Source: Antonospora locustae (taxonomy: Eukaryota; Microsporidia). Taken from it: a stretch of 64,000 nucleotides of DNA. The position numbers were made by a program, and so were the translations under genes. The notes under the pieces were generated by a model, which did not search any database, was not told where the DNA came from, and worked only from the letters and a program-made list of their open reading frames with translations. The stretch spans positions 186,001 through 250,000 of the forward strand of contig CM017448.1 of the NCBI GenBank assembly GCA_007674295.1. Reading direction: 5' to 3'. This document shows, piece by piece, positions 17,313-42,422 of this stretch; within the stretch, counting starts at the first letter, position 1, and each line of letters opens with the position of its first letter.

Positions 17313-17465
17313 ATGGACAATGATTGCTACTTGAACAACTACAATGCAGTCTTTCTGTATATCTCTGATTATGAAATACAGTCCGTGATAAGGTCTTTGT
17401 ACTTAAAAAGCCAGCCAATAATCATTGTACTGAACACCGCCAATTACTCTTCCATGAAATCCTGA
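17313..17465 (+). CDS. Possible 50-aa ORF overlapping the MSH5-like 3' end
   Basis: An ATG-started frame of 50 codons with a hydrophobic core (AVFLYISDYEIQSVIRSLYL and an IIIVLN strand). The stop lies 22 nt inside the 3' end of the convergent MSH5-like gene. There is no CCC motif or known family, so it may be noncoding. Confidence 0.22.
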   Translation: MDNDCYLNNYNAVFLYISDYEIQSVIRSLYLKSQPIIIVLNTANYSSMKS

Positions 17466-19810
17466 ATGAGCTTTACGGCCCACTGATCGTTTCTTTTCTT
17501 TCTGCTAGAAAATGCCATTTTTTTCTTGTTCATATGGCATTTTAAGATGAATTCTTTTGAGAACCCAAACTTCTCTGCATATTCTATGCCCTCATGTTCA
17601 AAATAAACACCTTCTTGAATAAAGAATCTTTTTGACCTATTTTTCATTGCAGAGTGAATAAACATCATCTTCCAGTGATTTAAAAAGCTAAAGTTAAAAG
17701 GTATACTCCTCTGTGCTAGCTCTTCTCTTGCTTCCAAGCACGCTCTTTTACTGGTTCCGTGTATAGAACTGCTGCGCTGTCTCACTAGACCTCTTTTTTC
17801 GCTTTTGTTGACATGCCCTGTGATCCTTGAAGACCTGTGATCAGCATCTCTTTCTCTGAAAGCTATTTTATCCTCGCGTACACTACCTATTGATCTAGAT
17901 GCAAAATATGTGTCTGTACTTGTGTAATTGACTCCGTCATATGGAGGATAGCTCCTGTTGCTGATAGAGACGCCAGGGATCTGTTGCTGAAAAGGGCTGA
18001 TAAGAAAGAAGCTCTGAAGATGAGTTGTAAGCAGAACTCGCGGATAGTCAAAGTTCTTAATTATAGATAGTAGCAGTGAAGTTCCATCAATAATGTCCGA
18101 TCCACGGCCAAACTCGTCAATAAGAACCAGGCTATCGCTTGTTGCAAACCTAATTCCCTCGCTCAGCTGCAGAAGGTCGCATTTGAATGAGCTTGTGTTT
18201 TCCTTTGTGGTGATCTTAGTAAATATTTTGTCAAAGATAGGTATTTTTGCCTGCCTGCAAGGAACAAAGGACCCCATCTGGTTCATTATAACAATATTGG
18301 CAACGTTTCGCAGAAAAGTGGATTTTCCACTTCCATTAGACCCCGTGACTATTATGTTTTTGTCAATGACTATGCTGTTTTCCACGGAGTCTCCGAGGCC
18401 AAAAAATCCACCAAGAACCATCTTTCTGTCGCTACTTATTTCGCCCTTTACAAAATTGTGCTTTTCAGCTGCAATTGCAAGAGAAACAAAGCAATCAATG
18501 GTGGATACTAGGTTTTTAGCTGCAGAATAAAACCTCGCAATCTCCTCCAGAATCAGATTGGTGAGTTCAATTTCAAGGTCGTTGATTCTGTTCTTCAGGT
18601 CGCCAAATTCGCAGTCCAATGTTTCCATGAAGTCATTTTTGTAATAAAAGACATCTTCAATTCTGAACTTCAGCTCCCACTCCATTTCCTGGCTTGTCTC
18701 TATGAGATAGCCAACTTGTGGAAAGTAGATAATACTGATACCTACCTTGTTGCATTCGGAGGCTACTTTCTTAGCCACTTCATCGAGATACTTTGGAAGA
18801 TCCTGATACATCTCTCGAAGTCTATGGAGCTCTGTGTCCACGCTGCTTTTAAATATGAAGTCACTTTCAAGATCTATCTTATATACAATGTCGAAAAGAT
18901 ATATATCAGTATCGTCCAGTCTGTTGTTTGGAACAAGAGCGTCAATGTCAAAGCTGTATATTTTCCTTAGAGCTTCCTGAATTATAGACACAGATCTGTA
19001 GAACTCACCAGCCAGTCTAAGATATCTTTTAACATCACATGCTGCAAAGCTTTTCAAAGACTCGTCTACAAAACTGCACTTTTTTAGAGCCTTGGCCAGT
19101 GTGCTCTGTAGCTTGTTTCTGATAATAAACTCCACAACTTCCTTTCTCTCTGAAATCAGGTCTGCGCTTGTTAAGGGAAAGGAAATCCACATTCTGAGCA
19201 TCTCGGCCCCAGACTTTGTCTGGCAGAAGTTTATGCTGGAAAACAAAGATAAATCATGCTTTTCTGTATGTACAAACTTGTTTGGGTGTGACCTTATTCT
19301 AAAAAGGTTAAGACCTGCTATGCTGTTATATCCTATAAACAGCGAGTTGTCCTCGTTATAGAGAAATAATGTGTACTTTGAGATCTTTCCAAGCCTTACC
19401 AGAAAGTCTTTCTCCTTTCCAGGTGCTGCTTCTAAGAAGACATGTGTGTTCATAATTGCGGTGTAGCTTTCTGCAGCTTCGCTAAGGTACGAGTCTAGTA
19501 TGCTGAGACTAGCCAGGCTTAGATTGCAGTCATCTCTATTTATTTTAATTCGTTTTCGTCTAGATTTGGACACGATTTTGATCTCCACACCTGTTTCAGA
19601 AATCATATCAAACTTATCCAGCCCAATGTCAAGCGTGCACACACATACATCCACGCAAAACTTATATATCATCGTTTTTGCTCTCTCGCAACTGAGTGTG
19701 TCAAAGAAGTCTTTGCATATTACAAACGCATCGTTTCTAAACACGCAGACTCCAGTTATTCCCTTGTTATACTCCATGCAGATGTAGTTCTTCTCCTCTG
19801 TATTTGTCAT
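17444..19810 (-). CDS. MSH5: MutS-family protein, MSH5-like (meiotic MutSgamma type)
   Basis: 788 aa. The lever/clamp region carries the MutS core block LFSSINFCQTKSGAEMLRMW. The C-terminal ATPase has Walker A GSNGSGKST, then MGSFVPCRQAKI, the signature DLLQLSEGIRF, and Walker B SLVLIDEFGRGSD followed by TTH. The SFVP-x2-A...IFTKITT-x-E pattern and the missing N-terminal mismatch-binding domain (no GxFYE) point to MSH5 rather than MSH2/3/6. MSH4 is the main alternative. An unusual Ser/Arg-rich insertion of about 90-100 residues (about 610-705) separates the TTH step from the terminal helices. MSH4-MSH5 stabilises crossover intermediates in meiosis. The ATG at 19810 has no CCC. Confidence 0.82.
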   Translation of the reverse strand: MTNTEEKNYICMEYNKGITGVCVFRNDAFVICKDFFDTLSCERAKTMIYKFCVDVCVCTLDIGLDKFDMISETGVEIKIVSKSRRKRIKINRDDCNLSLASLSILDSYLSEAAESYTAIMNTHVFLEAAPGKEKDFLVRLGKISKYTLFLYNEDNSLFIGYNSIAGLNLFRIRSHPNKFVHTEKHDLSLFSSINFCQTKSGAEMLRMWISFPLTSADLISERKEVVEFIIRNKLQSTLAKALKKCSFVDESLKSFAACDVKRYLRLAGEFYRSVSIIQEALRKIYSFDIDALVPNNRLDDTDIYLFDIVYKIDLESDFIFKSSVDTELHRLREMYQDLPKYLDEVAKKVASECNKVGISIIYFPQVGYLIETSQEMEWELKFRIEDVFYYKNDFMETLDCEFGDLKNRINDLEIELTNLILEEIARFYSAAKNLVSTIDCFVSLAIAAEKHNFVKGEISSDRKMVLGGFFGLGDSVENSIVIDKNIIVTGSNGSGKSTFLRNVANIVIMNQMGSFVPCRQAKIPIFDKIFTKITTKENTSSFKCDLLQLSEGIRFATSDSLVLIDEFGRGSDIIDGTSLLLSIIKNFDYPRVLLTTHLQSFFLISPFQQQIPGVSISNRSYPPYDGVNYTSTDTYFASRSIGSVREDKIAFRERDADHRSSRITGHVNKSEKRGLVRQRSSSIHGTSKRACLEAREELAQRSIPFNFSFLNHWKMMFIHSAMKNRSKRFFIQEGVYFEHEGIEYAEKFGFSKEFILKCHMNKKKMAFSSRKKRNDQWAVKLIQDFMEE

Positions 19811-20031: not shown

Positions 20032-20210
20032 CTAGTATATCTTGAGTTTATTTCTCCTCCAATGGCGACGCTTCATGTTATATTGCTGTGTATTTCCTCT
20101 CATTCTTCTCTTCCATACAGGTATTGGTCTATTTCTAACCAGTGCCCTCGACAGTCTTGTCTTGATTATCTCCGTTTTTCTCGATCCCTAATTAAAGTTT
20201 TACTTACCAT
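20032..20210 (-). CDS. RPL39: 60S ribosomal protein eL39, interrupted by a 20-nt intron
   Basis: Exon 1 is only the ATG (20210-20208) and exon 2 is 20187-20032. Joined, they encode 52 aa beginning MGSRKT. The block [11 protein letters not shown] (RQNRPIPQW.R in eL39), then [16 protein letters not shown], covers the entire eL39 signature, and the length is exact for the family. Unspliced, the ATG frame does not reach these residues. CCC lies 5 nt before the ATG. The gene is divergent from DNA2 (106 nt between starts). The protein lines the ribosomal exit tunnel. Because of its size and intron, a simple ORF scan misses it. Confidence 0.93.
20188..20207 (-). other. 20-nt spliceosomal mini-intron in eL39
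   Basis: Begins GTAAGT and ends TTTAATTAG, directly after the initiator ATG. The branch-like TTTAAT is fused to the 3' AG, as in the very short introns of microsporidian ribosomal-protein genes. Removal restores a complete eL39 protein. Bud31, a core spliceosome factor, is encoded in this window. Confidence 0.9.
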
Positions 20211-20315
20211 TTGATGGGTAGCGTTTTCTGTCTCAAGAGATCAGAGATCATAGAAAACCAAAACAGCAATCCAGGGGTCCTGTGAAGATTCAATACTTGT
20301 AGCAATAAAGCCCCA

Positions 20316-23096
20316 ATGAAGAACAGAGTATCATGGTCAGCCTCACCTGTGAAGGCAAAAAAAGCAAAGAGAGAATACACAATCCCTGAGGTCACCACAC
20401 AGGAAACCACAAGGTTCTGGAAGGAACCCCCTAGTTCTTTTACAGAAAGCAGCGATACGTTTGATGATTTCAGCTCAGCACTTTCCACAACAAATGGCGT
20501 GCATTCATTTACAATAGCATCAATTGACCGTAGAGACGGTCGTTTGGTGCTGTCATCAGGTACAAGTAGAATAAGAGTCGAAGGCGCTTGGCAAGAAATA
20601 AATTTCCAGGTCGGACAGCGAATCAACGTGTTCAGCTGTCCGTGTTGTATGCACGAAAGCGTACCGGGGGACAACATAGTCATTGACGACGACCACAACT
20701 TGCTTACAGTAGAAAGCGACGTTATATCAGTGACTACTTTTGTACGTGCATTTAAGTGCACAAACCTTGTATTTTTCGGACAAAAAGTTCTAGATCTTAA
20801 CCTTGAATACCAGGACTCGTCGGCAGTTGTTGGCAGTATAATTCATTCTCTTGCTGAGATTGCACTGAAAGAATACAATTTCAGCTTGGAGTTTATGGTA
20901 CAGAAACTTAAAGCACTTGTGCATGATAATATTCGGCTTATATACATGTCGAATTCAACTGAAAAAAAAATAATAAGCGAATGCATGAAGCATGTTAAAC
21001 ATCTGCTTAAGATGAGAGTTAAATATATCGAAACCGAGAAAAAGCTCACGTCCTTTGTGCTTAACCTAAAGGGAAAGGTCGATGTTGTCACCGAAACAGA
21101 CTTGATTGAAATAAAGACGGGAAAGCCGTCAGCAACACACAGGGCTCAACTGATACTGTATGGCATGATGCATCGCGAACCAAAAAACTTAAAGCTCTAC
21201 TACACAAACACTGGTGAGTGGGTAAATGTAAATTTGAGACACAGCGAAGTTCGGTCTATCGTCCTAATGAGAAATTTTCTGAGTCTTAAGGACTGCAAGT
21301 GCAGCACTTATTGCTGTCTAATGCAACAAATGGACCTGTTCTGCAAGTTATACTGGGATGCGCTTGAAAGAGAAGAACAAAACAGAATGAACAGAGTTTT
21401 GGAGGCGTTCTGCATCTCTCAAGCAAATGATATTCTGACTGTTGAGTGTCCTGATTGCAATTCTGGCTATAGACAGCAGTGCACTTCTAATGAAGCTACA
21501 CCAATCGAACGATGTGCATATAAATCAGATTTCATTAAATGTGAAGAATATGCGGAAAGTATGGCCGGAGACGTTTACATACACATTTTTACGAAAAACA
21601 AACTTCGCCTCTGTAGAGGAAGAGTTGCTGGGGTAAAAGAAAGGAGAGTTACCATACAATTGCTTGATAACATCAAATTAGACACGCAGGCATCTGTGTT
21701 TCTTTCAATGGACTACTCTGATATTTTATACAAAAGCATACGATATGCATTGCTGAATTGTCACTCAACATACCAAAGACTATTGAGACACTTTGGAGAT
21801 CCTCATCACTTTCTAAAACGACTGCAAAGGGACAATGTCTTGAGCAGTAAGACAAAGAAAGAAGTCTGTGAGGGCTTCTCAGACACAAAAACCATAACAC
21901 CAGAGATATGCAATGAAGAGCTAAAATACGGCAAAGTAGAGATGAGACCCATCTGGGAGAAAATCAGTAAAGAACCTTCTCCTCATTTAAGTCGCTATTC
22001 CATTCTTGAGTATAAGTTCAAGATACCCGAAACACTCAGAAATGACTTTCTTTCTCTAAATGAGCACCAAAGGTCGTCTTTATTTCTTTCTCTGAACACC
22101 CCATTTTTCCATTTAGTGCATGGCATGCCAGGTTCGGGAAAAACTGGAATTGTAACTTTGCTCATTCGTATACTAAGCTACTACAAGCAGTCTGTATTAG
22201 TTGTGTCATATACTAATTTATCACTAAATAACATAGCGAAAAGGCTAGGGCTACATGTATACACAGCAAATCGAGGTGCTATAGATAGAACAGCCAGAAA
22301 TAACAGCGGCGCAACACAGACGAAGTTGACTACAAGCACAGAAGAATCAAAAAGTAGCTCATGCTTTAGCGATTTCAACTCAATAGACGATGCAAGGGCG
22401 CGACTTGACGACACAAAAATAGTTACTGCAACATGTTTTTCATTTTCAGATCCGGTGTTCACAAATCGGACATTTGACTTTCTGATCGTTGATGAGGGAT
22501 CTCAAATACACTTTCCTCTAGGTCTTCTGCCAATAAGTATATGCAAAAGGTTTGTTGTATTTGGAGACCATCTTCAGCTAAAGCCTCTTGTATTCAGCGA
22601 GGAGACGCTTTCTTTGAGTTTGTTTCAGGGACTGATGGATGGAAGCCAAAGCGAGCTTAGAGTGCAGTATAGAATGGGCAGAGAAATCATGAGGTTGCCA
22701 AACATACTGTTTTATGGAGGCAGAATGATGTGCGGTGTAGGCTACAAAGGAAGTGTTTGCTATATTGACACAGGTCTACCAATGTACAGTGATGGGCTTG
22801 AGGCTTTTTTTCGCACAGTTGATGAGGATGTGGTGGTTCTATGTTACTTCAATACACAGGTTAGCTATCTGAGGCAAATAATAAAGAACACTGTGGAAAC
22901 TGTGGATAGATACCAGGGCAGCGAGGCTGACCGTGTTGTTATCGTCTTTGACCCTGTTGTGGACTGCAGCGTTATAAGAAATCGAGAAAGGCTAAATGTT
23001 GCTCTTACTAGGGCACGAAAATCGTTACTTCTTCTAGGGGACAGAAAAAAAATGACTCAAATACCAGTTCTTGAACAGCTGCTAAATCTTCTATAG
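20316..23096 (+). CDS. DNA2: DNA2 helicase/nuclease
   Basis: 926 aa from an ATG preceded by CCCC-A. A RecB-like nuclease core (LKGKVDVVTETDLIEIKTGKP, about residues 250-270) is flanked by cysteines fitting the iron-sulfur cluster (one near 150, then CKCSTYCC). A superfamily 1 helicase follows: Walker A GMPGSGKT near 607, Walker B DFLIVDEGSQ, GDHLQLKP, motif V VDRYQGSEADRVVIVF, motif VI ERLNVALTRAR. DNA2 cleaves 5' flaps in Okazaki fragment maturation and resects breaks. It is somewhat shorter than the yeast enzyme (1522 aa), mainly at the N-terminus. Shares a divergent promoter with eL39. Confidence 0.95.
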   Translation: MKNRVSWSASPVKAKKAKREYTIPEVTTQETTRFWKEPPSSFTESSDTFDDFSSALSTTNGVHSFTIASIDRRDGRLVLSSGTSRIRVEGAWQEINFQVGQRINVFSCPCCMHESVPGDNIVIDDDHNLLTVESDVISVTTFVRAFKCTNLVFFGQKVLDLNLEYQDSSAVVGSIIHSLAEIALKEYNFSLEFMVQKLKALVHDNIRLIYMSNSTEKKIISECMKHVKHLLKMRVKYIETEKKLTSFVLNLKGKVDVVTETDLIEIKTGKPSATHRAQLILYGMMHREPKNLKLYYTNTGEWVNVNLRHSEVRSIVLMRNFLSLKDCKCSTYCCLMQQMDLFCKLYWDALEREEQNRMNRVLEAFCISQANDILTVECPDCNSGYRQQCTSNEATPIERCAYKSDFIKCEEYAESMAGDVYIHIFTKNKLRLCRGRVAGVKERRVTIQLLDNIKLDTQASVFLSMDYSDILYKSIRYALLNCHSTYQRLLRHFGDPHHFLKRLQRDNVLSSKTKKEVCEGFSDTKTITPEICNEELKYGKVEMRPIWEKISKEPSPHLSRYSILEYKFKIPETLRNDFLSLNEHQRSSLFLSLNTPFFHLVHGMPGSGKTGIVTLLIRILSYYKQSVLVVSYTNLSLNNIAKRLGLHVYTANRGAIDRTARNNSGATQTKLTTSTEESKSSSCFSDFNSIDDARARLDDTKIVTATCFSFSDPVFTNRTFDFLIVDEGSQIHFPLGLLPISICKRFVVFGDHLQLKPLVFSEETLSLSLFQGLMDGSQSELRVQYRMGREIMRLPNILFYGGRMMCGVGYKGSVCYIDTGLPMYSDGLEAFFRTVDEDVVVLCYFNTQVSYLRQIIKNTVETVDRYQGSEADRVVIVFDPVVDCSVIRNRERLNVALTRARKSLLLLGDRKKMTQIPVLEQLLNLL

Positions 23097-41999: not shown

Positions 42000-42422
42000 C
42001 TAGTATCCAGAGCATCCTCTGCATCCACAGTTATCACACTCCACTACACTGTTTGTCTCTAAATTTCTCCGTGGAACTCTACATATGCACACGTTGCCAT
42101 GTTTGCTGTCGTTCTGTATGCACCGGAGACAGCAAAGATTTTCATACCCGTTTTTTTTCCAATAGCATACAAGAACATGGTCGCAGTAGAAATTTTCTGT
42201 GCAATATCTGTACATGCGTTTGGAAATCTTCCCGCTCTTATACATGTCATATATATTCTTTGTGCGCTCTCTGTGCAGGCGAAATATTGGCCAGTACCTC
42301 TCCTGCTCGCGAATACCTGTGTCCTGGCTAGCTTCAATATCACGCATTTTCTGCTCAACCTCGTCGATGTAATTTGAAATTACAGGCCATTCATCGGGCG
42401 GATCCTGGTGATAGCGAGGCAT
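42000..42422 (-). CDS. BUD31: Spliceosome protein Bud31 (G10 family)
   Basis: 140 aa; the ATG directly follows CCC. The G10 family pattern spans the entire length: PPDEWPVISNYIDEVEQKMRD, WPIFRLHRERTKNIYDMY, then the zinc-cluster region YWKKNGYENLCCLRCIQ, NVCICRVPRRNLE and CDNCGCRGCSGY, with all cysteines present. Bud31 sits near the catalytic centre of the spliceosome. It fits the presence of a real intron in eL39 at 20.2 kb. Confidence 0.95.
   Translation of the reverse strand: MPRYHQDPPDEWPVISNYIDEVEQKMRDIEASQDTGIREQERYWPIFRLHRERTKNIYDMYKSGKISKRMYRYCTENFYCDHVLVCYWKKNGYENLCCLRCIQNDSKHGNVCICRVPRRNLETNSVVECDNCGCRGCSGY

Follow-up and report, generated by a model that had tools for sequence, protein, structure and literature searches.

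A probable 20-nt spliceosomal intron directly behind the start codon of the Antonospora locustae eL39 gene, further short introns and an altered U6 ACAGA box

The gene for ribosomal protein eL39 of the microsporidian Antonospora locustae harbours an insert of exactly 20 nucleotides directly after its initiator ATG, and this insert is with high probability a genuine U2-type spliceosomal mini-intron. It would correspond to the L39 introns reported at the start codon in other microsporidia, shortened to 20 nt. Its removal would join the ATG to the eL39 reading frame, and its retention would yield a peptide of 14 amino acids. From the sequence we infer that the eL39 RNA is spliced, and the branch nucleotide and the pairings with U6 RNA are predictions of the same kind. 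The gene is located on the minus strand of a 64,000-nt stretch of DNA, termed the window, and the search for related introns was extended to the whole genome.

Read directly and recomputed, the minus-strand layout of the gene is CTACCCATCAA, ATG, GTAAGTAAAACTTTAATTAG and GGATCGAGAAAAACGGAG. Exon 1 consists of the initiator ATG alone (20208..20210, minus strand) and is followed by the intron GTAAGTAAAACTTTAATTAG (20188..20207, minus strand), both delimited by reading the sequence, and by exon 2, which comprises 51 codons plus the stop (20032..20187, minus strand) and is delimited by translation, by its Pfam match and by a chain of the ribosome structure 6ZU5. The intron has GT-AG ends with a strict GTAAGT-type 5' splice site, and its 3' region TTTAATTAG carries a YTAAY branch motif near, or merged with, the 3' AG. 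Within the branch-like TTTAAT, the presumed branch A is intron base 16, four nucleotides from the end. These splice ends and the TTTAAT fused to the AG had been described in an earlier, sequence-only reading as fitting microsporidian mini-introns, an assessment in line with the GTAAGT and TAAY signals that other introns of the genome share.

The intron interrupts a ribosomal protein gene at its 5' end, and its retention breaks the frame: translated from the ATG, the unspliced RNA offers 14 codons and then a stop. The terminal TAG of the intron is in frame with exon 2 and directly abuts its first codon, and therefore, no ATG in the frame of exon 2 precedes that exon unless the 20 nt are removed. 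Within exon 2 itself, an ATG first appears at codon 30, counted along the spliced protein. In keeping with this stop structure, the claim that translation of eL39 requires splicing holds. According to a first-order Markov model built on the window, chance should produce the pattern ATGGTAAGT followed by 1-22 nt and TAAYTAG 0.001 times in the window and 0.06 times per 3.17 Mb. The window contains it once, and the genome has two matches to a very similar pattern, both within ribosomal protein genes. When the window was scanned with a far more permissive motif, the eL39 intron was the sole credible one; three other loose-motif matches there that lack a long through frame were rejected, as they lie antisense to long frames. 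The eL39 gene is adjoined by a gene for a MutS-family protein (17444-19810, minus strand) and diverges from a gene for a DNA2-like helicase/nuclease (20316-23096, plus strand), with 105 bp between the two start codons.

A CCC triplet upstream of the start codon has been described as a signal of microsporidian genes (PMC2803860, PMC2685015). In eL39 it is found at 20216..20218 on the minus strand, 8 nt upstream of the ATG, and because this start signal precedes the ATG, the ATG-only first exon is supported. CCC occurs at -5 to -9 in all five short-intron genes with a clear start (eL39, eL37, eS30, eS6 and a ThiF gene), and uS12 likewise displays CACCCCAACGA ahead of its ATG. By comparison, CCC precedes 7% of all 2687 ATGs present in the window and 36% of the first ATGs in 25 open reading frames of at least 300 amino acids.

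The spliced open reading frame encodes a complete protein of 52 amino acids, as proposed from the sequence alone. It matches the Pfam family PF00832 (Ribosomal_L39) with 54.6 bits (cut-off 21.6) over the full model (positions 1-42 of 42), and its N-terminus is the same as in V. necatrix eL39 and two further relatives. A search for an intron-free eL39 elsewhere had been suggested as a check; the family search across the whole genome (3,170,203 bases, 17 contigs) gave one match only, and hence no intron-free copy was found.

Residues 2-52 of eL39 are identical to the 51-residue chain LLL of PDB entry 6ZU5, the ribosome of Paranosema locustae spores (PMC7644102), and the eL37, eS30, eS6 and uS12 proteins of the same genome match 6ZU5 chains with no mismatches over the aligned stretch. 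The window accordingly derives from P. (Antonospora) locustae or a strain very close to it. Since the protein sequences of 6ZU5 were identified by tblastn in non-annotated genomes (PMC7644102), the letter identity of eL39 is expected and by itself no proof of expression; it is the chain modelled in the spore ribosome that counts as proof that eL39 is made. Moreover, the 6ZU5 eL39 stems from genomic tblastn and begins at exon 2, and therefore the identity shows the species and the modelled protein, not the junction between ATG and exon 2. The deposited sequences of eL39 and eL37 start exactly at the first codon of exon 2, and the deposited eS30 (chain SEE) has Leu-Glu as its first two residues, which are encoded by the final six bases of the eS30 intron. 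The eS6 chain correctly starts with Met-Lys, and in the uS12 chain the parts on either side of the intron are joined. On the simplest reading, three of these five chains (eL39, eL37 and eS30) would be stop-opened frames in which the introns were overlooked. Start-codon introns would then explain the missing initiator Met of eL39 and eL37, as well as the two intron-coded residues of eS30 in the 6ZU5 chains.

Motif searches across the genome, which the sequence-only reading had proposed for ribosomal genes, yielded nine distinct coding-supported introns including that of eL39, namely eight of 19-23 nt (one of them weak) and one of 70 nt. Three further ribosomal genes bear start-proximal introns: eL37 (23 nt) and eS30 (22 nt; contig C14, 129847-129868, plus strand) directly after the ATG, and eS6 (23 nt) after ATGAAG. 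An intron of 21 nt is located inside the glycine-rich loop of a ThiF/E1-like gene (contig C6, 59997-60017, plus strand). All four are supported by a Pfam family and by their frames. The eS6 intron has already been printed for A. locustae (PMC2803860), and its recovery by the same search accordingly serves as an independent positive control. The remaining short introns reside in genes without a Pfam match: a membrane protein gene with an intron of 19 nt is present in copies with identical flanks on contigs C1 and C11, on contig C10 a degenerate relative of this gene has kept the splice signals of a weakly supported 20-nt intron, and a second, different membrane protein gene contains an intron of 19 nt. 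The C1 copy lies 6.6 kb and the C11 copy 8.7 kb from an end of its contig.

The 70-nt intron interrupts uS12 (S23; contig C9, 70737-70806, minus strand) 155 nt past the start of its ATG. Its signals are as in eL39, and the joined protein equals 6ZU5 chain SX0 in 140 of 140 residues with 0 mismatches. A probable intron of 47 nt (contig C1, 53679-53725, plus strand) has no Pfam match; when spliced, the frames are open to both ends of a 347-nt piece, and when unspliced, stops fall inside the insert. Besides the contig of eL39, like signals are found on contigs C1, C5, C6, C7, C9, C10, C11 and C14. As judged from sequence, the genome thus possesses a class of short introns of 19-23 nt, start-proximal in five genes with a Pfam family, plus at least one long intron. 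Along with the protein family, the stop structure and the CCC signal, the eight like introns (one weak) bear out the claim that a 20-nt intron directly follows the eL39 ATG.

Strict GTAAGT...TAAYTAG sites of 19-23 nt number seven in the whole genome versus 0.85 expected, and all seven are coding-supported, one weakly. At 29-40 nt the strict motif occurs six times, each time without coding support, and the rough expectation (for 24-42 nt) is 3.2. The pattern GTAAG...TAAYTAG of 16-46 nt has 18 sites in the whole genome versus 12 for the reversed control, while the looser GTAAGT...TAAY(0-3)AG (63 sites versus 130 for the reversed pattern) and its longer version (45 versus 116) are not enriched. 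Given that the wider motifs show no enrichment and that the non-coding sites of 29-40 nt exceed expectation, the motif alone proves nothing, and the coding context decides. All 63 loose-motif places were read and their 61 distinct sequences frame-scored, and the best ones were judged by hand. Eight of the 45 longer GTAAGT candidates were read; one was supported (uS12), one was probable (the 47-nt candidate), one was the eL39 site and five were unsupported.

Several candidates were rejected. A 17-nt candidate (contig C9, 20903) had a favourable automatic score, but its unspliced frame runs straight through; a 41-nt candidate and a 25-nt GTGAGT candidate are antisense to long frames. GTGAGT produced 22 matches, eight of which passed a loose frame filter: five of these eight are inside continuous frames of at least 260 codons, one is the antisense 25-nt candidate, and two are without a convincing frame. 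GTATGT...TAAYTAG has six matches in the whole genome, four of them distinct, and none of the three distinct ones examined has coding support. A DNA search of plasmid records gave no match, as expected. On contig C4 (150762-160139), two pairs of identical pattern matches recur with the same spacing on opposite strands, which suggests that at least 1.27 kb has been duplicated in inverted orientation, with a spacer in between.

The genome also retains components of a spliceosome, in line with the proposal that the machinery is kept, which had been based on BUD31 at 42 kb. The gene for this pre-mRNA splicing factor (42000..42422, minus strand) was recovered with 160.7 bits, and a U2 RNA with GTAGTA (contig C17, 71.8 bits, above cut-off) as well as a PROCN domain of the PRP8 type (contig C6, 230 bits), which we take to mark PRP8, are present. 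U6 RNA is encoded on contig C3 (143216-143314, plus strand; 63.5 bits), and no other U6 match of the genome exceeds the Rfam cut-off. A second, U6-like match that contains ACAGA (contig C13, 10053-10150, minus strand) reaches 19.4 bits versus a cut-off of 44 and is probably due to chance.

In a region that aligns without gaps, this U6 reads ACACUGAGAAG versus AUACAGAGAAG in the Rfam consensus: ACUGA replaces ACAGA by a change of the central A to U, and beside it a neighbouring U is changed to C. An A at intron position +4 is present in all nine supported introns, a small sample for which the main search patterns themselves imposed +4A, and in five of the nine, position +7, which faces the second U6 change, is a G. 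At positions +4 to +7, the U6 of A. locustae would make three to four Watson-Crick pairs versus two for the consensus U6 in seven of the nine introns; for the eL39 and uS12 introns, the numbers are three versus three. The profile PF05971, presumably the Pfam family that includes METTL16, gives no hit at an E-value of 0.1 anywhere in the genome, and the same profile matches five of 14 control genomes.

The central base of ACAGA is reported to face intron position +4, and METTL16 methylates this A in several eukaryotes; a change of the central A to U could pair with +4A, and ACAGA was invariant in all 240 species examined (PMC10581693). A likeness is provided by Cyanidioschyzon merolae, whose U6 also carries ACUGA with the central A changed to U and a possible Watson-Crick pair with +4A of the 5' splice site, but this organism, unlike the one studied here, is a red alga (PMC10581693). 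We consider it probable that a compensatory U6 change has re-tuned splicing in A. locustae, such that ACUGA and the U-to-C change would pair with +4A (9/9) and +7G (5/9) of a near-uniform GUAAGU(G), with METTL16 not found. If true, A. locustae would represent a further, independent lineage besides C. merolae that solved +4A by changing U6 rather than the introns. With ACUGA beside +4A introns, it becomes testable whether lineages that are poor in introns and lack METTL16 retain +4A splice sites through mutation of U6. The U2 and U6 genes of A. locustae were reportedly published in a paper of 1998, and the change to ACUGA may thus have been published before.

An alternative to splicing is that the insert is a decayed, no longer spliced intron, and that eL39 is made by another route, either from a non-AUG start in exon 2 or from a second gene copy. 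Precedents exist in Spraguea lophii, where six intron-like sequences next to an ATG, most of them in ribosomal genes, remained in the sampled transcripts (PMC3749934), and hence removal is not to be assumed in every species. Furthermore, 22 of 37 introns of Encephalitozoon cuniculi are spliced in less than 20% of transcripts (PMC3629993). Yet, decay is very unlikely for eL39: the genome gives a single eL39 match, a TAG stands directly ahead of exon 2, the first ATG of this exon is at codon 30, and the modelled ribosomal eL39 begins at exon-2 codon 1; in addition, the GTAAGT and TAAY signals are intact and common to other introns. The chance that a sequencing or assembly error inserted 20 nt into an intronless eL39 gene is negligible, as the inserted letters make up an entire intron, including its two splice sites and its branch motif, the same signals recur in other genes on eight further contigs, and L39 start-codon introns have been printed for other species (PMC3486916, PMC2784321).

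If the insert is a genuine mini-intron, as we favour, its retention might still be controlled in a gene-specific manner and set the output of eL39, as opposed to a constitutive and generally inefficient splicing. The dependence of eL39 translation on intron removal is compatible with such a switch, as are the spliced fractions in E. cuniculi, which vary widely between introns and time points (PMC3629993). However, the RNA fold around the eL39 start is not beyond chance (z = 1.14), and because several other genes share the splice signals, control through these signals would be common to all of them. A gene-specific switch is thus improbable, and the suggestion of the sequence-only reading that the ATG-only exon is a point of regulation is left unsupported by the fold and by the generally low splicing in E. 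cuniculi, where 30 of 37 introns are spliced in less than 50% of transcripts (PMC3629993). Low splicing is likewise general in V. culicis, with a median of 25.3% (PMC4435813).

Start-codon mini-introns have their counterparts in print. L39 and L37 start-codon introns are described for Octosporea bayeri and E. cuniculi (PMC2784321), where the statements refer to the gene and the start-codon region: the introns of O. bayeri measure 24-33 nt and those of E. cuniculi 23-52 nt (PMC2784321; 22-76 nt according to PMC3629993), compared with 20 nt (eL39) and 23 nt (eL37) here. In Trachipleistophora hominis an L39 intron has likewise been printed, and the regular expression GTA[AG]GT...TAATT...AG given for this species fits the eL39 intron of A. 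locustae (PMC3486916). The S23 intron reported for S. lophii resembles that of uS12 (S23) and bears on the longer class, not on eL39 (PMC3749934). For A. locustae itself, the only intron found in print is that of eS6, a different gene (PMC2803860); additional file 3 of that paper, which marks introns of ribosomal genes, may list the eL39 intron as well. Among the matches listed in a search of mainly open-access literature, none mentions the A. locustae eL39 intron or the U6 box.

Accordingly, the eL39 intron is not new in kind, and its 20 nt are new only in degree; it would extend the known microsporidian class to this length. To place 20 nt at the extreme lower limit of spliceosomal introns, as had been done from the sequence alone, is too strong, given that introns of 16-17 nt are documented in mikrocytids (PMC10245619). 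These introns are similarly very short, with strict motifs and a reduced spliceosome, but the mikrocytids belong to the Rhizaria and possess 224 introns of uniform length, compared with a handful of 19-23 nt and at least one of 70 nt in A. locustae (PMC10245619). With its class of 19-23 nt, A. locustae would bring the microsporidia near the lower end of known intron lengths. Finally, an intron in a ThiF-domain gene of V. culicis has been said to be confined to this species and its close relatives (PMC4435813), a claim on which the ThiF intron of A. locustae may bear.
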